NCBI GenBank assembly: GCA_017453045.1
Contig: JAFTKX010000006.1
Span: 1-64,000 of the forward strand
Length of the DNA: 64,000 nucleotides
Direction of reading: 5' to 3'
Origin: Clostridia bacterium
GTDB lineage: Bacteria > Bacillota > Clostridia > Christensenellales > Borkfalkiaceae
Position numbers and translations under genes: made by a program. Under the pieces are notes generated by a model, which was given only the letters and a program-made list of their open reading frames with translations, was not told the DNA's origin and did not search any database. Positions 44,435 through 64,000 of the stretch are shown here, in pieces (within the stretch, counting starts at the first letter, position 1; each line of letters begins with the position of its first letter).

Positions 44435-46333
44435 ATGGAAAAAGTAAGAATTCAAGACGATTTATTTACGCACGTAAACCAAGAAGCGTTGGATAAATTA
44501 GTTATTCCCGACGATAAGCCTACCGCAGGCGGATTTCAAGTACTTGCAGACGACGTTGAAAAATTGATGATTGGCGAATTTAACGCTATGAGCAAGTCTA
44601 AAGCATATCCTAACGTTTATTTAGAAAACGCTTGCAAATTGTTTAAGGTTATCAAAAACGTTAAAAAGAGAGAAAAAGACGGTATTACCCCCGCTCTTAA
44701 AAACGTTGCAATATTAAACAAAGTAACGGATATGAAGTCTTTTAGCAAACACTATAAGACTTTGAAACTTAAGAGAATTCCCCTTCCTTTCATCATTTCG
44801 GTTGACACCGATATGAAAGACTCTAAAAAGCATTGCGTTGCAATTCAAGGTCCAAGCGTTATTTTGCCAGACGCTTCTTACTATAAACCCGAAAGAGCGC
44901 AACAAAAGGATATGATTTTGGGCGTTTGGACTAACGTTGCGAAAGCAATTCTTGCAAAAACCGATTTAAGCCCTGAAGATCAAGAATTATTCCTTGCAGA
45001 TACTATTAAATTCGACGCTATTTTAGCAAATCTTGTAAAAACTCGCGAAGAATGGTCTGAATACGTTAAGGCTTACAACCCTATGAAATCAACTAAAGTT
45101 GCTTCTATGGTTAAACCCGTAAACTTTAAGAAGATTTTGAAAGATTTATTCGGTTTCCTTCCCGAAACAGTTATCGTTGCAGAGCCAAGATATTTTAAAG
45201 CGTTTAAAGAAGTATTCAACGAAGAAAACTTTGAAATTTACAAGCGTTGGGCTTACGTAAACGCAATTATCAATTCCTGCTCTTATTTAACCGAAGAGTT
45301 GAGAGATTTAGGTAGCGTTTACTACCGCACTATCGCAGGTATTAAGGCTAATACTCCGCTTGAAAAATACGCTTATCAAATAGCGTCGGGTATGTATTCT
45401 GAACCTGTTGGATTGTACTACGGCGAAAAATATTTCGGCGAAGAAGCAAAGAAAGATATTACCGAAATCGTATATCAAATTATCGACACTTATAAATCGA
45501 GAATTCAAAACAACGATATATTAGAACAAGCAACTAAAGATAAAGCCATTTTAAAACTCTCTACAATGGGCGTTAAAATGGGTTATCCCGACAAAGTTAG
45601 AAAAATTTACGACCTTTTGGTATTTAACGAAAAGAAATCTTTGTTCGATATAATGCTTACTTTAAACCAAGTAAGAGTTTTAGATTCGTTAGCAAAATTG
45701 AACGAGCCTACCGACCCAACCAAGTGGCAAATGCCGGGTCATATGGTAAACGCTTGTTACGATCCGTCGGTAAACGACATTACCTTCCCCGCTGCAATTT
45801 TACAACCGCCGTTCTATTCTTTAAAGCAATCGAGAAGTGAAAACTTGGGCGGTATCGGCGCGGTTATCGGACACGAAATTTCTCACGCTTTCGACTCGAA
45901 CGGCGCTAAATGCGACGAACACGGCAACATCAACAACTGGTGGACAAAAGGCGACGAAAAGAGATTTAAGACTAAAGTTAACGCTATGGTTAAACAATTC
46001 GACGGCATTGAACTTCCTTGGGGTAAGGTAAACGGCAAGTTTATCGTTAGCGAAAATATGGCAGATAACGGCGGTATGGCTGTTACGTTGGAAATTATGT
46101 CTAAAACTCCTAACGCGTCTTACGTAGAATACTTTACTAACTGGGCAAAAGTTTGGTGCGTAAAGGCAAAACCCGAATATCAACAATTACTCTTAAGTAT
46201 TGACGTTCACGGTCCTAATATTTTGCGTACGAACATGCCACCGAGAAACTTCCCCGAATGGTACGAAACGTTCAACGTTAAAAAGACTGACAAGATGTAT
46301 CTTGCTCCAAACAAGCGTATTGTAATTTGGTAA
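44435..46333 (+). CDS. pepO: M13-family metallopeptidase (PepO/neprilysin type)
   Basis: 632-aa zinc endopeptidase. The zinc motif HEISHAFD (HExxH, near residue 485) is followed by the third ligand in SENMADNGGMAVTL (ENxxD), with NDITFPAAILQPPFYS before it and the C-terminal INVHGP-like LSIDVHGPNILRTN. No signal peptide or membrane anchor, so it degrades oligopeptides in the cytoplasm. Stand-alone gene with its own promoter and terminator. Confidence 0.94.
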   Translation: MEKVRIQDDLFTHVNQEALDKLVIPDDKPTAGGFQVLADDVEKLMIGEFNAMSKSKAYPNVYLENACKLFKVIKNVKKREKDGITPALKNVAILNKVTDMKSFSKHYKTLKLKRIPLPFIISVDTDMKDSKKHCVAIQGPSVILPDASYYKPERAQQKDMILGVWTNVAKAILAKTDLSPEDQELFLADTIKFDAILANLVKTREEWSEYVKAYNPMKSTKVASMVKPVNFKKILKDLFGFLPETVIVAEPRYFKAFKEVFNEENFEIYKRWAYVNAIINSCSYLTEELRDLGSVYYRTIAGIKANTPLEKYAYQIASGMYSEPVGLYYGEKYFGEEAKKDITEIVYQIIDTYKSRIQNNDILEQATKDKAILKLSTMGVKMGYPDKVRKIYDLLVFNEKKSLFDIMLTLNQVRVLDSLAKLNEPTDPTKWQMPGHMVNACYDPSVNDITFPAAILQPPFYSLKQSRSENLGGIGAVIGHEISHAFDSNGAKCDEHGNINNWWTKGDEKRFKTKVNAMVKQFDGIELPWGKVNGKFIVSENMADNGGMAVTLEIMSKTPNASYVEYFTNWAKVWCVKAKPEYQQLLLSIDVHGPNILRTNMPPRNFPEWYETFNVKKTDKMYLAPNKRIVIW

Positions 46334-46375: not shown

Positions 46376-46463
46376 TTGATATGGGTGAATTATACTTTTA
46401 AGTGCAACACCTTAATTACTAATTGATTTTTAATCAATTAAGGTAGTGCCACCTTAAAATTTT

Positions 46464-46712
46464 GCCCAACTTCGTGCCCAACATTTTTCATTTTCTACTT
46501 AATTTAAAAATTTATTTAGGAAATCTAAACAAAAAAATTAGCGGTTTTAAAAGTTTTTCACTTTCAAAACCGCTATTTTGGTGCACCTTCGGGGACTCGA
46601 ACCCAGGACCCACTGATTAAGAGCCAATTAAAAGGTTTTTTTAACACGCAAAATTGCCCATTTTATCTGCGATTTTAAGAACACGAAAAACCCAACCCAA
46701 CATTTACCCAAC
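46464..46712. repeat. GCCCAAC/ACCCAAC direct repeats around the att site
   Basis: Heptamers GCCCAAC at 46464 and 46476 (left of the tRNA fragment) and ACCCAAC at 46690, 46695 and 46706 (right of it); another lies near 47269. Spaced direct repeats on both sides of a tRNA att core resemble arm-type sites of tyrosine integrases. The copies to the left would lie outside this element and could be left by an earlier insertion. No gene is supported in 46376-46739. Confidence 0.5.
46579..46626 (-). other. att core: 3' half of tRNA-Lys(CUU)
   Basis: The minus strand reads from the anticodon loop (GGCTCTTAATCAG) through T-arm GGGTTCGAGTCCC to GGTGCACCA, including CCA. No D-arm or 5' acceptor strand precedes it; the sequence becomes unrelated AT-rich DNA right of 46626. 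This is the usual footprint of integration into a tRNA 3' end, with the rebuilt full tRNA-Lys expected at the far end of the element. Confidence 0.88.
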
Positions 46713-47521: not shown

Positions 47522-48451
47522 CTAATTCAACAGCGGAAACACATCACAATCGGACCTTTTTAATTCTGGATCTAATATGGTTGACTTTAAAATTTCATCA
47601 TAAATTACAAACTTGTTACAATAACTAAGTTTATAGCCAAGACTTATATCGTCTTTTTCCAATTCAACGTCTAAACAACTATCAATATGCCTTGAATAAA
47701 CTATTTTTTCTTCTGTTTTACCTATATACTTAATAATATAATTAGCAACGCCACCGACGTTATTTTCTATAGGCTGAAAATCGTTTCTTCCAAAACGAAC
47801 TGCAAAAAAAGAATTTATCATTGACTTTTCCATACGCTTACGCATAGGATTAAAATACTTACTTACTTTGAAAAAGCCTTTCATCTGTCCTTTAGGTATA
47901 TAAAAAACGCCATGAAAATGTAATCTTCCTGTTACTGCACCGTTTTCCCAAACACCCATAAATCGCCAACCATAATCAGTTGCTAAATGACTTAGGCAGG
48001 TTAAATAAGATTTTTTAAATTCTTCTTCATTATCAAATTTAGAAGAATCGTAAGTTTGCGTTACAAAATAATTCCAACAATGCAAATTAGCCTTTTCCTT
48101 GAAACGTTTTTTCCGCATTATTAAATTAATTCTTTTTTGCTTTAATCGCTTTTCTACGTAATCGCTAAAATCTATATCATTGTTTAACATATCAAACAAA
48201 TCTTCATAATAATGATTATTTTTATACAAAACAATCATTCTACTATTGATATATTCTTTTTGCTTTTCAACGTTCAAATTCAAATCTTTAGACTCTTTAT
48301 AGGCTATCTCGAACAATTCCGAAATAAAATCTTTCTTAATTCTTCTTTTATTGCTCTTAATCGCTGTTCGTGTTCCGACCAAATGAAAACCGTTTACTTT
48401 AAGTTTATATCTTGCAATTTCTGGAATTGCTTCTCTTAATACCATCTCCAT
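47522..48451 (-). CDS. HUH rolling-circle replication initiator
   Basis: 309-aa Rep-like protein. All three HUH motifs are visible: motif I FVTQTY (about 129-134), motif II RLHFHGVFY with the two metal-binding His (177-181), motif III NYIIKYIGK (237-245) with a single candidate nicking Tyr neighbourhood. It would nick one strand at the origin and start rolling-circle synthesis. This single-domain layout resembles initiators of ssDNA phages and small plasmids; no helicase domain. First motif begins after a 120-aa basic N-terminal region. The start at 48451 is tentative (GGAATTTAT upstream). Confidence 0.85.
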   Translation of the reverse strand: MEMVLREAIPEIARYKLKVNGFHLVGTRTAIKSNKRRIKKDFISELFEIAYKESKDLNLNVEKQKEYINSRMIVLYKNNHYYEDLFDMLNNDIDFSDYVEKRLKQKRINLIMRKKRFKEKANLHCWNYFVTQTYDSSKFDNEEEFKKSYLTCLSHLATDYGWRFMGVWENGAVTGRLHFHGVFYIPKGQMKGFFKVSKYFNPMRKRMEKSMINSFFAVRFGRNDFQPIENNVGGVANYIIKYIGKTEEKIVYSRHIDSCLDVELEKDDISLGYKLSYCNKFVIYDEILKSTILDPELKRSDCDVFPLLN

Positions 48452-48478: not shown

Positions 48479-48507
48479 TTGACTTTTACGTAAAAATCGA
48501 ATATAAT
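48479..48507 (+). promoter_or_regulatory. Promoter of small RNA 1
   Basis: TTGACT (48479-48484), 17-base spacer, TATAAT (48502-48507), 28 bases upstream of the rep start and on the opposite strand. Confidence 0.85.
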
Positions 48508-48513
48508 AATATC

Positions 48514-48592
48514 AAGAGAGAGGACTCGCTGATTAAGTTCGGCTGAACGACTTACGCTGGAAACAGGACTGTAACTGCCACTCTCTTTTTTT
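48514..48592 (+). ncRNA. Small RNA 1, about 79 nt (class A)
   Basis: Starts AAGAGAGAGG and ends CCACTCTCTTTTTTT, so the two ends pair (7 bp, an A-A mismatch, 2 bp) and form the terminator. Inside are two hairpins: GUUC-GGCU-GAAC and CUG-GAAA-CAG. The core CGCTGATTAAGTTCGGCTGA is nearly repeated in small RNA 3. A three-way-junction fold is implied. It runs against the leftward genes and lies between rep and the gene at 48596. No known RNA family is recognised. Confidence 0.75.
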
Positions 48593-48595
48593 ATG

Positions 48596-48913
48596 CTATT
48601 TTTTCTTAATAGGCTTGTTCATTACTGAATCAAACTTGCTTTTATCTTTTGCGTGTATTTTCCAATCATTATATCCACGAGAAAAATCTTTGATTTTATC
48701 TTCATAAGGATTTGGTAAAATATACGCTTTTTTCTTATCTTTACTATTTGGATTTTTATGTAAAGGAATAGTCGGCTCATTATCATAATTATCTGAATGC
48801 GTTATACTTACGTATTGATATTTACCGTCTTTTTTTGAATAAGTATATGCAGGATGATTAGTTGCTTTGTTTTTTCTAAAACCCTTACGAAAGTTATTTC
48901 TCATTTTAGCCAT
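48596..48913 (-). CDS. Small basic protein C1
   Basis: 105-aa highly basic, hydrophilic protein with no membrane span. The stretch THSDNYDNEP...HKNPNSKDKKKAYILPNP is similar in order to THTKKKDYEE...KPNPDKTDNRSMYLKRP in the gene at 51775, so the two are probably paralogues. Each has a class A small RNA converging on its 3' end. Function unknown; DNA or RNA binding is plausible from the charge. Confidence 0.6.
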   Translation of the reverse strand: MAKMRNNFRKGFRKNKATNHPAYTYSKKDGKYQYVSITHSDNYDNEPTIPLHKNPNSKDKKKAYILPNPYEDKIKDFSRGYNDWKIHAKDKSKFDSVMNKPIKKK

Positions 48914-49396: not shown

Positions 49397-51568
49397 CTAT
49401 AAAAGTTCATCTTGCGTTGATATATAGTCCGCATACTCTTTCATATCGTCAAGTCCGAACAAATTATACTCGACACGACTTTCAAACGTTCCTGACATAC
49501 AGTCGCTCCCGTTACGCTTACTACGATTTTTCTTGAAAGAAAGATAATACTTGCTATTTTTTACCCTACCTTCCATACGTCCGCTTTGCAACTCTATGCT
49601 TAAACGCTTTCCGCCGAACAAATTCATTGTCCTGTCATTCCAACGCCCTATAGTCGTTCTTAAAAATTCAAAAAAAGTTGTCAAAAGCCTATTGTCCGTT
49701 CTTAAAAAACGATTTTCTAAATACAAGCCGTCAAGTTTATTTTTTAAACCTAACAAAAAGGGCGAAAACATCCTAAAAGGGCTAAAAAACGGCAAAACGG
49801 TAGCGCTATCACTACTATCTTCTATTAAAGCAACTTGTCCTACGCCCCTTAAATTTGCCGTTATATTTTCAATACGTTGCATATCCGCGCCTATACTTAC
49901 CATATTCCTATGGCGTATATAACAAGCGTGTCTTGACATTTTAAAAAGGACGTGAGTCAAATCGTTCTTTTGGTTGCATTCTTCATCTGAGCCTTTTACT
50001 TCTTGAAGTTCTAACGTATTTTTGAACTCTTTATCCGCTTCCGTTATTATCCATACGCCCCATCCAAAAGCGTAGCGGTTAGGATTATCCTTAATCATTT
50101 GATTGCCGAGTCTTATCATGTCAAAATCAAGTATATGACTATGACGACTAAACGAATCAATATATCTACTATCACGAGCAAAAAAGTCGCTATTCCACAT
50201 AGGGAAATTGCCTAAATCTTCTAAAAGGCTATCTACTCTTATTGAATAGTTTGATACAATCAAACTACTTTCGGTTGTATAAATCGTATAAGCGAGAGCA
50301 TAATCTCTTAATACGTCCCATATATCTTCAAGATATAAATTGTTATCATAAACTACAGGATATTTATCTATATCGTAACCGTATATCGTTGCGCTACAAG
50401 GGTTATTCAAAAAGATTTCTTTTTCAGAGTTTATCCATCTAATACAGGACCACTTGTCATAGATAACGTGATGGGCATAACATTGTTTCAAAACTCTTTC
50501 AAATGCAAGCCAAGGAAAATTTGGAAAACACGCGTCGCACTCTAATATTATTTCAAGCGCGTCGTCGCGAAGTTGTACTTCCATACTTAAAGCCATATCC
50601 GTAAGCATTGAAGTTTTACCTTCGCCCATTTCCGCGTAAATATAGGTTACGACACCTAATTCATTTATAAAACCCCTATTTCTTCGTTCGTTACGCCTTA
50701 AACGGTTATATCCGATTTTTTTGCTTATGACTGACAAAATAATGAAAGCAATTACTACGTAACCCCACCAAGGAAAGAACGTGAAAAACGCCCATAAATC
50801 TAAAAACAACTTGTATATTTGCCTATACAAATTCACAAAATCAAAAGATACGGCAAAATATAAGTAATAAGATATAAATTCAATAAAAATCGTCGGCACG
50901 TTAATATATAACACGCCTAAGACTATCCAAACTATGTACGTTGCAGGGCTCTTTTTTAGAAAATTTAAAAAACCTACAACCCAATTTTTTATATGCTTAA
51001 ACACGTTAAATTCTAACCAACGCCAAAATTTCAAAAACTTACTATCTTTAATTACGGTTTCAGTTTTTGGTTTGAAATACCACTTTTTAAACAATGAAAA
51101 AGATATAAAAAATATGGGTACGGCAAAAAGTACAATCGTACTTACTATCGTAAATAAGTTTAACACGTGATATATATATCTAAAAAAGACAACTTTTTTA
51201 GCAAAGGTTTGCCAATACAAATCCCATTTCCGCCAAAATGCGCCAATTTCAGAAGGAATAAAAGTCGTCGGATTTGATATCGAAGGCGCGTTCTCGACTT
51301 TAAATAACGACAATACTAAATCTCGTAAGTTTAAAAAGGAATAGTCCGGCAAGTTATTTACCGTCGGAACGTAACCTTCTATATCAAACGCATAACAAAA
51401 CACACTCGCGCAACTTGTACCAAAATCTATACAACTCTCTACTAATCGCCCTAAAAAAGTTGGAAAACGAAATATGCCCAAATAAACAAATATAGCCGTA
51501 ATTACAGCATAAACGTATATATACTGCGCTTTTAAAAAATGATTTTTTATTGCTTTTAAAACTCTCAT
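49397..51568 (-). CDS. Membrane-anchored P-loop ATPase (Zot/pI-like)
   Basis: 723-aa protein. The first 290 residues hold about five hydrophobic segments (near 17-40, 128-160, 208-240, 258-282). Then comes a P-loop ATPase: Walker A YAEMGEGKTSM (about 311-321) and a Walker B-like WGVWIITEADKEF (503-515) after an ACFPNFPW segment. This order, membrane part then ATPase, suits a secretion or assembly motor. In a small HUH-Rep element the closest known role is the Zot/pI assembly ATPase of filamentous phages; a VirD4/FtsK-type coupling protein is the alternative. Start overlaps the 30-aa membrane peptide (ATGA). Confidence 0.7.
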   Translation of the reverse strand: MRVLKAIKNHFLKAQYIYVYAVITAIFVYLGIFRFPTFLGRLVESCIDFGTSCASVFCYAFDIEGYVPTVNNLPDYSFLNLRDLVLSLFKVENAPSISNPTTFIPSEIGAFWRKWDLYWQTFAKKVVFFRYIYHVLNLFTIVSTIVLFAVPIFFISFSLFKKWYFKPKTETVIKDSKFLKFWRWLEFNVFKHIKNWVVGFLNFLKKSPATYIVWIVLGVLYINVPTIFIEFISYYLYFAVSFDFVNLYRQIYKLFLDLWAFFTFFPWWGYVVIAFIILSVISKKIGYNRLRRNERRNRGFINELGVVTYIYAEMGEGKTSMLTDMALSMEVQLRDDALEIILECDACFPNFPWLAFERVLKQCYAHHVIYDKWSCIRWINSEKEIFLNNPCSATIYGYDIDKYPVVYDNNLYLEDIWDVLRDYALAYTIYTTESSLIVSNYSIRVDSLLEDLGNFPMWNSDFFARDSRYIDSFSRHSHILDFDMIRLGNQMIKDNPNRYAFGWGVWIITEADKEFKNTLELQEVKGSDEECNQKNDLTHVLFKMSRHACYIRHRNMVSIGADMQRIENITANLRGVGQVALIEDSSDSATVLPFFSPFRMFSPFLLGLKNKLDGLYLENRFLRTDNRLLTTFFEFLRTTIGRWNDRTMNLFGGKRLSIELQSGRMEGRVKNSKYYLSFKKNRSKRNGSDCMSGTFESRVEYNLFGLDDMKEYADYISTQDELL

Positions 51569-51674: not shown

Positions 51675-51703
51675 TTGACATTTTTAAATTTATCGTATAT
51701 AAT
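51675..51703 (+). promoter_or_regulatory. Promoter of small RNA 2
   Basis: TTGACA (51675-51680), 17-base spacer, TATAAT (51698-51703): exact consensus, oriented away from the membrane peptide gene. Confidence 0.9.
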
Positions 51704-54981: not shown

Positions 54982-55290
54982 TCATTTAATAGGTTTTTCA
55001 ACGCCAAAATACGCCACAGTTCGTTTATTTCGCTTACCTTTGTCGTCGTAAAAATGTTCTACTATTTGGCTCTTTGCTATCCTATTTAAATCGTAAGTAC
55101 TTCCCTTATATTTAGGCTTTTTCTTATCACTTGCAGTTACAATCATATTAGGCATTGAAGTTTCTATCTTTCCTACGAAAGAATATTTTGGATTTAACTT
55201 CATTTTTCCGTTTTTTCCTTTTACCCACGCATTTTCCGCTGTAACCAACCTAACGCCTTTATGTTTTAAACTGTAATTTACGTTTGACAT
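54982..55290 (-). CDS. Small basic protein A1, divergent from small RNA 4
   Basis: 102-aa basic protein. VRLVTAENAWVKGKNGK, MKLNPKYSFVGKIE and KPKYKGSTYDLNRIAK define a family shared with the genes at 60787 and 61877. Its start codon (ATGTCAA) contains the -35 box of the oppositely directed small RNA 4, so RNA polymerase at that promoter covers the start of this gene. RBS GGAGAAGAAAA. Function unknown. Confidence 0.68.
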   Translation of the reverse strand: MSNVNYSLKHKGVRLVTAENAWVKGKNGKMKLNPKYSFVGKIETSMPNMIVTASDKKKPKYKGSTYDLNRIAKSQIVEHFYDDKGKRNKRTVAYFGVEKPIK

Positions 55291-55312
55291 TTTTCTTCTC
55301 CTATGTTATTAT
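55284..55312 (+). promoter_or_regulatory. Promoter of small RNA 4
   Basis: TTGACA (55284-55289), 17-base spacer, TATTAT (55307-55312). The -35 box overlaps the start codon of gene A1 on the other strand. Confidence 0.85.
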
Positions 55313-55318
55313 TATTTC

Positions 55319-55436
55319 GCCACCAGCCCCTGTATGGGGAAGCGTTGGGGAACTCCGCAACGACAAGAGAGAACGTTTGGCTTAAATGCGTAGACTCTCT
55401 ATTATAACCGTCCTTTTAGGGCGGTTATTTTATTTT
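55319..55436 (+). ncRNA. Small RNA 4, about 118 nt (class B)
   Basis: Ordered hairpins: CCCC-UGUA-UGGGG; CGUUG-(10)-CAACG; AGAGAG-(23)-CUCUCU; terminator AACCGTCC-TTTTA-GGGCGGTTATTTT. The terminator is nearly the same as that of small RNA 5. No ORF of interest inside. No known family recognised. Confidence 0.72.
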
Positions 55437-61074: not shown

Positions 61075-61103
61075 TTGACTTTCTCCTATTTTCTGTCTAT
61101 AAT
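61075..61103 (+). promoter_or_regulatory. Promoter of small RNA 5
   Basis: TTGACT (61075-61080), 17-base spacer, TATAAT (61098-61103), immediately beside the A2 start codon. Confidence 0.87.
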
Positions 61104-61108
61104 GTAAT

Positions 61109-61236
61109 CACATCGGCATATCCGTTTGGATTGAAGTTAAGAACGTTGTTGCTTAACCAGGCAAAGTATCTATGATGTTGAAATAATTTGATGTGAAGCT
61201 TTGCACTAACCGTCCTTTTAGGGCGGTTAATTTTTT
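61109..61236 (+). ncRNA. Small RNA 5, about 128 nt (class B)
   Basis: A 7-bp stem TCACATC/GATGTGA encloses hairpins ATCC-GTTT-GGAT and TTAAG-(10)-CTTAA. GCAAAG (about 61161) can pair with CTTTGC (about 61199) across the closing stem, a pseudoknot. Then AACCGTCC-TTTTA-GGGCGGTTAATTTTTT terminator. The GCAAAR / YTTTGCAYTAACCGT pairing is shared with small RNA 6. The terminator ends 4 bases before the RBS of the gene at 61249, so it could also act as an attenuated leader. Confidence 0.72.
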
Positions 61237-61794: not shown

Positions 61795-61823
61795 TTGACA
61801 AAATTTTGCATTTAGAATATAAT
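61795..61823 (+). promoter_or_regulatory. Promoter of small RNA 3
   Basis: TTGACA (61795-61800), 17-base spacer, TATAAT (61818-61823): exact consensus. Confidence 0.92.
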
Positions 61824-61829
61824 ACCTAC

Positions 61830-61908
61830 TGAACGGTGCTTCGCTGATTTATTTCGGCTGAGCGGACATGTACGAATTAAGTTTCGGGTATCCCACCGTT
61901 CTTTTTTA
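61830..61908 (+). ncRNA. Small RNA 3, about 79 nt (class A)
   Basis: GAACGGTG near the 5' end pairs perfectly with CACCGTTC before TTTTTT. The inner segment CGCTGATTTATTTCGGCTGA matches small RNA 1 at 17 of 20 positions. A second hairpin CGAA-(5)-TTTCG follows. Its 3' half overlaps the 3' end of converging gene A3 by about 30 bases. Confidence 0.78.
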
Positions 61909-62221
61909 TGCCTACTTGTTTGAAGTGGGCCTTTTTTCTTACCAAATAAACAACTCGCTTCCCTTCCGTTTTTAACAACTTAACTACTTCATTTTTTGTC
62001 TTTGTGGATAGGTTGCTCGTATCTTCTACAAATTTATGATTTCCACCTGTTAAATTCGTAGAAGTTATAAATGAACTTGTACCTTTGTCTATTCTTCCGA
62101 ATATCCCTAAGTCCTTTTTAAGTTTTGGTTTCCCTTTCTTGTCTTTTTCCCACACTTTATCTGCGGTTACAACTTCTAAGTTTACTAAATCTTTATTTTT
62201 TGATTGAAAAGGTCTTGACAT
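61877..62221 (-). CDS. Small basic protein A3, between small RNAs 3 and 6
   Basis: 114-aa basic protein, paralogue of A1 and A2: LEVVTADKVWEKDKKGKPK, LGIFGRIDKGTSSFIT, NHKFVEDTSNLSTKTKNEVV. The start codon ATGTCAA contains the -35 box of divergent small RNA 6, exactly as in A1/RNA 4. Its 3' end overlaps small RNA 3. RBS GGAGAAAGTTA. Function unknown. Confidence 0.68.
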   Translation of the reverse strand: MSRPFQSKNKDLVNLEVVTADKVWEKDKKGKPKLKKDLGIFGRIDKGTSSFITSTNLTGGNHKFVEDTSNLSTKTKNEVVKLLKTEGKRVVYLVRKKAHFKQVGIKKNGGIPET

Positions 62222-62244
62222 TAACTTTCTCCTTTTGCTATAAT
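62215..62244 (+). promoter_or_regulatory. Promoter of small RNA 6
   Basis: TTGACA (62215-62220), 18-base spacer, TATAAT (62239-62244). The -35 box overlaps the start codon of A3. Confidence 0.87.
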
Positions 62245-62249
62245 GTAAC

Positions 62250-62392
62250 CACTCTTTCAAAGGTCGTGAACACGACAGTTGCGCAATTGTGGCAACCTTT
62301 GCAAAAACCCATGAAAGTTTTATTTCGAGTTTTCGAAAGGGATAGATTTTGCATTAACCGTTCGGGGAAATTTTCCCCGAGCGGTTTTTAAT
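62250..62392 (+). ncRNA. Small RNA 6, about 143 nt (class B)
   Basis: CAAAGG/CCTTTG encloses hairpins GTCGTG-AA-CACGAC and TTGC-(9)-GCAA. GCAAAA (near 62300) can pair with TTTTGC (near 62347), followed by ATTAACCG. The terminator is CGGGGAAA-TTTTCCCCG within AACCGTTCGGGG...CCGAGCGGTTTTTA. The GCAAAR/YTTTGC-A-YTAACCG plan equals that of small RNA 5. Confidence 0.72.
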
Positions 62393-62595
62393 TTAGTCAC
62401 CAAAAAGAGTCTTCTTCGGTGCTTTTTCTTTGTTACCGGACACTACGCCACGGTCGTAACTATCTTTAATTAGCGATTCGTTTTTACGTCCGCGTTCAAC
62501 TTGACCCATTCGGTAAGCGAGTATTTCAATTTCGGTATATTTACCTTTCTTCTTCCTTGAATTGCGCCTACCGTTTGAATAATTGTTTTTGCCAT
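62393..62595 (-). pseudogene. Small basic protein gene with broken start (D2)
   Basis: A convincing coding frame ends at 62393: GKNNYSNGRRNSRKKKGKYT, EIEILAYRMGQVERGRKNES, then DSYDRGVVSGNKEKAPKK and TLFGD. It has no start codon in frame near the AAGGAG site. The ATG at 62595 is in a different frame (ATGGC where ATGGGC would restore a 67-aa protein), so one G appears missing just after the ATG. From the ATG only a 40-aa unrelated frame is read. It is a natural frameshift, a sequencing indel, or a gene starting at the internal ATG. The RG...G pattern recalls D1. Confidence 0.55.
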
Positions 62596-62630
62596 TTTTC
62601 TTTTTCTCCTTTGATTAAATTATTTAAATC

Positions 62631-62643
62631 TTGCGTAACGCAA
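62631..62643. promoter_or_regulatory. Palindrome in the leftward leader
   Basis: TTGCGTAACGCAA, 13 bases with 6-bp arms, between the leftward promoter and the first leftward gene. Operator or leader hairpin. Confidence 0.5.
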
Positions 62644-62656
62644 TATTTATACTTAT

Positions 62657-62752
62657 ATAATACACTCATATTGAAAGATTGTCAAGCGTTTTTTTTAAAT
62701 TTCTTGCATTTTGAGAAAATTTATTTACAAATCTTTCAAATTTTTATATACT
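62657..62752. promoter_or_regulatory. Divergent switch promoters with paired operators
   Basis: Leftward promoter: TTGACA (62680-62685), 17 bases, TATTAT (62657-62662). Rightward promoter: TTTACA (62724-62729), 17 bases, TATACT (62747-62752). Each spacer contains AATCTTTCAA directly after the -35 box (62671-62680 inverted, 62730-62739 direct). An operator pair of this kind fits control by the HTH protein at 62774. Confidence 0.72.
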
Positions 62753-63124: not shown

Positions 63125-63135
63125 GGAGAATGTTT

Positions 63136-63444
63136 ATGGCTTACTATCACACACCTATTCAATGTGAAAACTGCTCAAGTAAAAACATTGCAATCATTTC
63201 AGAATTTCATAAAGAATGGGGATTAAGAATTTTAAATTCTTTTATAAAAGGCATATTGTTCATTATTAGTTTTCTTACTATATACGACGCAATTGAAAAC
63301 AAAAAATTAGGACCAGGTATAGTTGTAATAGCAATTTTAGGCTTATTAATATTTATGATTAATGCTTATATCGTAGCAAGCGAATCTAAATCTCACGTTC
63401 AAATTGTTTGTAAAGACTGCGGACACGTTTGGCTACATAAATAA
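63136..63444 (+). CDS. Zinc-ribbon membrane protein
   Basis: 102-aa protein. Paired Cys at the ends (IQCENCSSKNI and VCKDCGHVW) can form a split zinc ribbon around two membrane helices (SFIKGILFIISFLTIYDAI and GIVVIAILGLLIFMINAYIV). The ATG at 63136 is preferred to 63130 because AAGGAG sits 7 bases before it. Between the repressor and integrase genes; unknown function, possibly superinfection immunity. Confidence 0.65.
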   Translation: MAYYHTPIQCENCSSKNIAIISEFHKEWGLRILNSFIKGILFIISFLTIYDAIENKKLGPGIVVIAILGLLIFMINAYIVASESKSHVQIVCKDCGHVWLHK

Positions 63445-63532: not shown

Positions 63533-64000
63533 ATGCTAAATGAGAAAGAATTTTACGAAAAACTACTTTTAATCAATCAACTTACTCTTGAACTTATAGG
63601 CGATATCAACGAATATAAAAATACACGTAGCAAGTTTAAAATTTTACACTTTAAAGATTATGTAGACCGAAAGTCTACAAACGAAGATTTACAACTTAAT
63701 AATAACTGCGAAGACGTTTTGTTTACACCTAAGGAGATAAACAAAATGCCAAAAGAATTTAGGAAACTTTTTAGAACAAACAAAATATCCGCGCACGTAA
63801 GACTACAAAAAAACGGCAGTTACGAAATACGTTGCCAACTTAACTATAACCAAATTACAGCGACTGCTAAAACGATTGAACAGGCTAAAGAAAAATTTAT
63901 TACAAGGCTTTGTATTATCAAAGATAATACAAAAATCGTTAGCAAAAAGAAAATACTCTTTGGAGATTATTTTGTTAAGTGGTTAGAACTTACAAAAAAG
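63533..64000 (+). CDS. Tyrosine integrase (N-terminal part, runs off window)
   Basis: The first 156 residues of a phage-type integrase. A charged N-terminal section is followed by an AP2-like DNA-binding domain (ISAHVRLQKNGSYEIRC, QITATAKTIEQAKEKFITRL) and the start of the core-binding domain (FGDYFVKWLELTKK). The catalytic domain lies beyond the edge. It would recombine the element at the tRNA-Lys att site. Preceded by a promoter-like TATAAT near 63494 and a CCCCTAAA/TTTAGGGG hairpin (63502-63523). Confidence 0.82.
   Translation, partial: MLNEKEFYEKLLLINQLTLELIGDINEYKNTRSKFKILHFKDYVDRKSTNEDLQLNNNCEDVLFTPKEINKMPKEFRKLFRTNKISAHVRLQKNGSYEIRCQLNYNQITATAKTIEQAKEKFITRLCIIKDNTKIVSKKKILFGDYFVKWLELTKK

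Follow-up and report, generated by a model that had tools for sequence, protein, structure and literature searches.

An XRE-family protein encoded at the control end of an integrated element of about 18.3 kb, located at a tRNA-Lys gene, probably represses both its own gene and a phage operon through sites in the spacers of two predicted divergent promoters. The whole stretch of DNA that was analysed, 64 kb in length, is referred to here as the window, and the features discussed below are collected in Table 1. The region is best read as the immunity and lysogeny control of a filamentous-phage-like element. This reading builds on the genes, the promoter matches, a word common to both promoters, attachment-type repeats and a layout that returns in part of the related loci, all visible in the DNA itself; which word acts as the operator we infer from them.

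Table 1. Features of the XRE locus and of the element that carries it (positions in the window unless marked as contig positions)
Feature	Position	Strand	Remarks
Left attachment-type repeat with truncated tRNA-Lys	46420-46629		46420 is the edge of the aligned stretch
Rolling-circle Rep gene, REP_ORF2-G2P	47522-48451	-	PF23343, 41.1 bits, cut-off 27.8
Antisense promoter (48479-48507) facing the leader of Rep, then RNA-like stretch	48479-48603	+	Terminator scan: none assigned
Gene of large membrane protein with Walker-A-like motif	49397-51568	-	Hydrophobic stretches
Antisense promoter upstream of the large membrane-protein gene	51675-51703	+	Consensus match 12/12; no terminator assigned
Antisense RNA gene, pseudoknotted family (model R1)	55318-55429	+	Promoter 55284-55312
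Antisense RNA candidate, promoter to terminator	61075-61229	+	Matches R1 weakly (E 0.0014)
Antisense RNA candidate, promoter to terminator	61795-61930	+	
Antisense RNA candidate, promoter to terminator	62215-62386	+	
First leftward gene	62394-62600	-	One relative place, G207 contig 52 (L062 = L091)
25-bp imperfect palindrome	62625-62649		Candidate further operator or mRNA hairpin
Leftward promoter, TTGACA-17-TATTAT	62657-62685	-	Consensus match 11/12
Candidate operator AATCTTTCAA, leftward spacer	62671-62680	-	Exact copy
Rightward promoter, TTTACA-17-TATACT	62724-62752	+	Consensus match 10/12
Candidate operator AATCTTTCAA, rightward spacer	62730-62739	+	Exact copy
XRE repressor gene, 116 aa	62774-63124	+	HTH_3 E 4.3e-15; phrog_8 transcriptional regulator
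Gene of small cysteine-pair hydrophobic protein, 3' of the repressor	63130-63444	+	No Pfam match
Tyrosine integrase gene	63533-64000 (gene ends at contig position 64762, beyond the window)	+	PF00589 E 1.5e-11
Partner repeat past the integrase	Contig about 64760-64969		Overlaps intact tRNA-Lys 64919-64994

The first-pass annotation had described divergent promoters with 17-base spacers that carry the same decamer on opposite strands, beside an XRE regulator gene. All of these elements were found in the sequence, the promoters as consensus matches and the adjoining gene with an HTH_3 match of E 4.3e-15. The decamer, AATCTTTCAA, has a third exact copy at 45137-45146 and otherwise does not occur in the 64-kb window. 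Its described position next to the -35 box holds for the right copy, which begins directly after its own box; the left copy takes in the final base of its box, so the registers of the two copies lie 1 base apart. The word is non-palindromic, and the leftward spacer contains no dyad. As a bare inverted repeat AATCTTTCAA is unremarkable, since exact inverted repeats of at least 10 bases, at least 20 bases apart, arose in 298 of 2,000 dinucleotide shuffles of the 176-bp gap (15%). Its presence in both promoter segments is beyond chance: a common 10-mer appeared in only 13 of 20,000 trials in which the segments were shuffled separately, and in 14 of the 22,339 promoter-like pairs of the 64-kb window. 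The promoter scan of the 60-64 kb region gave 13 sites against a shuffle mean of 14.9, showing no excess.

The XRE gene, the small gene that follows it and the tyrosine integrase gene all lie on one strand. Pfam searches at E values up to 0.001 gave only HTH matches in the 116-aa XRE protein and no S24 peptidase domain, the domain by which a LexA/CI-type, SOS-inducible repressor would be recognised; the protein thus appears not to be of that kind. Opposite the XRE gene no antagonist (Cro, Cox or excisionase) was recognised, the first leftward gene being small and lying outside the Pfam scan. Because the repressor has no S24 match and no antagonist was recognised, induction of the element is left unexplained. 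That gene has a start adjoining the ribosome-binding site, but its reading frame with a known relative is in another register, which may reflect either an assembly error or a real feature.

We searched for the same repressor in several collections. It was not found in 301 genomes of the family (E up to 1e-12), in 396 genomes of the order (E up to 1e-18) or in viral and genome contigs scanned with exact peptide patterns, by which only close relatives are detectable. Nor was a DNA stretch with the same repressor found in viral contigs, phages, plasmids or 15 genomes of the genus; the other matches in one of these searches were short pieces of 28-94 bases. The best match among the 301 family genomes reached 57% over 60 residues, in the HTH part. 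A 9-kb phage record (H2, L157) with 48 bases matching inside the XRE gene carries an XRE gene of generic type whose upstream region differs, and was set aside.

The layout of the locus was compared with that of divergent XRE loci of the same family. Searched with an HMM, the fetched loci returned 55 hits, which gave 51 distinct upstream regions once one duplicate locus and the short and repeated regions had been dropped. Thirty-six of these, having a leftward promoter of at least 10/12 and room for the test, were analysed, and 15 were skipped. A repeat of the leftward spacer word in the direction of the XRE gene is significant (p<0.05) in 17 of the 36 loci, where about 2 were expected, and not in the other 19; the studied locus, itself one of the 36, gave p=0.005. 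These loci are not independent, as 14 carry one ATCTCA-type word and 8 of those are among the 17; with the ATCTCA-type loci removed, recurrence stands at 9 of 22, the studied locus included. The related loci are alike in a leftward promoter of the form TTGACA-word-TATAAT and, in 17 of 36, in a repeated word near the XRE gene. They differ in the words themselves and in that palindromic leftward spacers occur in 6 of the 36, the studied spacer not among them.

Past the leftward -10 box, 13 of 39 loci carry the spacer word once more at p<0.05, in 12 of the 13 at 5-14 bases; the copies of L009 and L025, both among the 13, resemble ribosome-binding sites. Three loci (L080, L081 and L086) come from contigs that also encode the large membrane protein of the studied element. 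All three have a word copy just 3' of the leftward promoter (p=0.013, 0.003 and 0.003, respectively); near the XRE gene a copy was found in L080 (p=0.025) and was not significant in L081 (0.165) or L086 (0.736). As to the lysogeny-type switch that the first-pass annotation had proposed, its genes, promoters, common word and element setting are borne out and its layout recurs in 17 of 36 loci; binding of AATCTTTCAA by the XRE protein is the part that we infer.

The setting of the locus is that of an integrated element with an integrase and attachment repeats. The attachment-type repeat is about 200 bp long and includes exact matches of 60 and 86 bases. Its left copy is similar to the sequence directly after the integrase gene as well, a likeness that may stem from an earlier related integration. 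Among the leftward genes, the Rep is a rolling-circle protein of the G2P kind, as looked for in a filamentous phage. The large membrane protein has relatives in 86 of the 301 family genomes, G000 included, and our guess is that it could be an export ATPase. No Zot match was obtained for 23 members of its family at E values up to 1, and no PHROG match for the protein; a structure model from two sequences reached a pLDDT of 34, and matches to profiles of solved structures (E 0.016 and 0.089) were read as chance. As none of the 23 members matched Zot, we name the element filamentous-phage-like and leave its membership open. No gene of the element was assigned to a coat protein. The Pfam scans, which covered 19 proteins, also placed a PcfJ-like gene among the leftward genes, a name that comes from a conjugative plasmid.

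In the proposed switch, the rightward promoter would give rise to the XRE protein, the small downstream gene product and the integrase, presumably by co-transcription. The XRE protein would occupy the sites in both spacers, limiting transcription from its own promoter and silencing the strong leftward one. The leftward promoter would drive the phage genes over about 15 kb, as far as Rep and possibly as one transcript, and a fall in repressor would switch the leftward operon on and allow the element to replicate. The leftward promoter could be a master promoter of the phage genes, a role that fits the census of the element: seven promoters there score 11/12 or better, six of them antisense, and the leftward promoter is the only sense one. 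An intrinsic terminator lies 3' of Rep (47491-47472, - strand). A single long leftward transcript is uncertain because the stretch of the leftward genes contains, beyond this promoter, five sense promoter-like sites of 10/12 and, on the - strand within the genes, seven weaker terminator-like sites.

The imperfect palindrome, which was absent from the first-pass annotation, begins 7 bases past the leftward -10 box and contains AAT(C/A)TTGC in each arm. It is possible, if on the doubtful side, that this palindrome is the main operator and that the same protein binds the decamers less strongly, as partial sites; the leftward block would then fall mainly just past the start, and autorepression would be weaker. 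The location of the palindrome favours such an arrangement, as it sits at the same offset as the further word copy past the leftward -10 box in some relatives (13 of 39), and so does AATCTTNC, a motif picked after the sites had been seen, which has three copies in the 176-bp gap (a number reached in 0 of 2,000 shuffles) and 25 in the 64-kb window. The arrangement is weakened by the lack of a match between the palindrome stretch and the leftward spacer of the same locus (p=0.55) and by the frequency of such palindromes, which arise in 136 of 5,000 shuffles and 24 times in the window; a leader hairpin could account for the palindrome instead.

We consider it unlikely that the decamers are a coincidence of A+T-rich DNA, with the XRE protein acting through other sites or elsewhere. 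The ease with which 10-base inverted repeats form in the shuffled gap, the lack of a dyad in the studied spacer and the 19 of 36 loci with no repeat at p<0.05 are what such a coincidence would produce, but it sits poorly with the placing of the decamer in both promoter segments (13 of 20,000) and with the recurrence of the layout among related loci. Finally, the XRE gene might control only itself and the integrase, leaving the leftward operon mainly to antisense RNAs and host factors. The leaders of several leftward genes are indeed faced by strong antisense promoters, but the leftward promoter, which no other sense promoter of the element equals at 11/12 or better, contains the common word too, and we regard this division of control as highly improbable. 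Repression through sites in both spacers remains our preferred reading, and an on/off design of this type is ordinary and recurrent in related bacteria.

Comparison with known systems places the locus among several familiar arrangements. In temperate phages of the lambda and P2 types, an HTH repressor faces the lytic or early operon and the operators overlap both promoters. The studied locus is like these in its HTH repressor facing an operon, with candidate operators at both promoters; it differs in that no second HTH gene was recognised where the opposite operon begins and no S24 peptidase match was found in the repressor. ImmR of ICEBs1 is a short XRE repressor adjoining the integrase of a Gram-positive element, and a short XRE repressor near an integrase is also what we find here. 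The PcfJ-like gene of the studied element bears on the same comparison. Unlike in ICEBs1, the gene after the repressor does not encode an ImmA-type peptidase, as judged from its lack of a Pfam match. In the Pf4r/XisF4 system of Pseudomonas Pf4, a divergent repressor belongs to a filamentous prophage that has its own integrase and lies near a tRNA gene; the gene opposite Pf4r encodes an excisionase, and both proteins are reported to activate their own genes and repress each other (PMC7379572). By comparison, the studied locus has no recognised excisionase, and its repressor would repress itself.

The + strand promoters at 48479, 51675, 61075, 61795 and 62215 face leftward genes, three of the five being followed by a terminator, and the RNA-like stretch at 48479-48603 is related to that at 61795-61930. 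We extended the promoter census to 40 element loci, the studied one and 39 fetched. Promoters of at least 11/12 numbered 45 on the antisense and 20 on the sense strand, and those with a terminator within 250 bases 19 and 0, respectively; promoters of at least 10/12 with a terminator 30-200 bases on numbered 24 antisense against 2 sense. The antisense RNA candidates sort into related groups. Folding energy was dropped as an indicator of strand because the strands hardly differ (mean z of -3.03 for antisense and -2.76 for sense, antisense being stronger in 15 of 27), and RNA bodies without a terminator gave z values mostly between 0 and -2. We argue instead for the strand assignment from promoters, terminators and conserved U-G pairs, which point to the antisense RNAs as the probable products. 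Candidates L069 and L106 were discarded for their weak promoters, and L089_339 at the folding-energy stage.

One of these groups, the pseudoknotted small RNAs described by model R1, which have a candidate promoter and terminator of their own, is a stronger lead than the switch finding. The R1 RNA of the element sits in the leader of a small gene (54982-55290). Covariation in this group is strong. In an alignment of 4 sequences, its 31 pairs are 99.1% paired, with 10 pairs changed on both sides; 0 of 500 shuffles scored as high on four of five measures, and 50 of 500 did on the number of pair types. The corresponding values are 97.4% and 25 of 31 pairs for 23 distinct sequences, weak matches included, and 98.4% and 19 of 27 pairs for 19 distinct sequences from the order-level search, with 0 of 500 shuffles as high on all five measures in both cases; these two alignments were fitted to model R1 and hence lean towards it. 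The pseudoknot lies outside the model and has 91.7% of cells paired, with both-sided changes in 2 of 4 pairs (23-sequence set).

At E values up to 0.01, model R1 matches 14 of the 301 family genomes, weakly in two cases. At E values up to 0.001 it matches 16 of 347 genomes of the order, which represent seven families and 12 of 138 genera; the two sets have three genomes in common. Thirty-nine matches have E values of about 1e-6 or better, and the locus could be examined for 38. A promoter-like site of at least 9/12 lies within 60 bases upstream in 35 of the 38 (shuffles gave a mean of 2.5 and a maximum of 6), two of the three promoter-less loci having no upstream sequence, and a T-run is present in 37. 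In 10 of the 38 a divergent frame of the small-gene family lies no more than 80 bases away; two or more of the ten frames are truncated or split, and eight are 28-29 bases from the R1 RNA. A model of the small-gene family built from one member reaches two members in the window (E 9.5e-9 and 1.2e-6). In L123, another element, a small gene of related sequence (38% over 85 residues) has the R1 RNA antisense in its leader, and the gene and RNA lie between Zot and Rep_1 genes, both above cut-off.

At gathering scores, Rfam recognised tRNA alone in the 64-kb window and no RNA family for R1; weak matches to His_leader (E 0.16), LLnc147 (0.077), anti-hemB (0.031) and ncS54 (0.4) fall far below gathering scores and were rejected. 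None of the paper titles retrieved describes these RNAs. The R1 RNAs also occur in tandem, with five copies in L114/L131 (G222 contig 136), one of which adjoins a truncated small gene, and three in L115 (G018 contig 2). Some tandem copies adjoin broken phage genes or none.

It is a plain guess that the R1 RNA might exert antisense control over the small-gene leader, and a bold one that tandem copies might provide RNA-based immunity. Joined to the switch, these guesses suggest a two-tier scheme, which we put forward as speculative and rather doubtful: the XRE protein would shut the sense promoter, antisense RNAs would silence the leaders of Rep, the putative export ATPase and the small-gene family, and tandem R1 copies may be phage immunity kept by the host.

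As a switch, the locus adds a clear case of the divergent XRE repressor layout among the poorly known large filamentous-phage-like elements, and it carries the prediction that one promoter controls most of the phage. The R1 family, conserved, covarying and found both antisense to phage genes and in tandem copies, would be a new RNA class and perhaps an RNA tier of phage control or immunity, open to direct testing.
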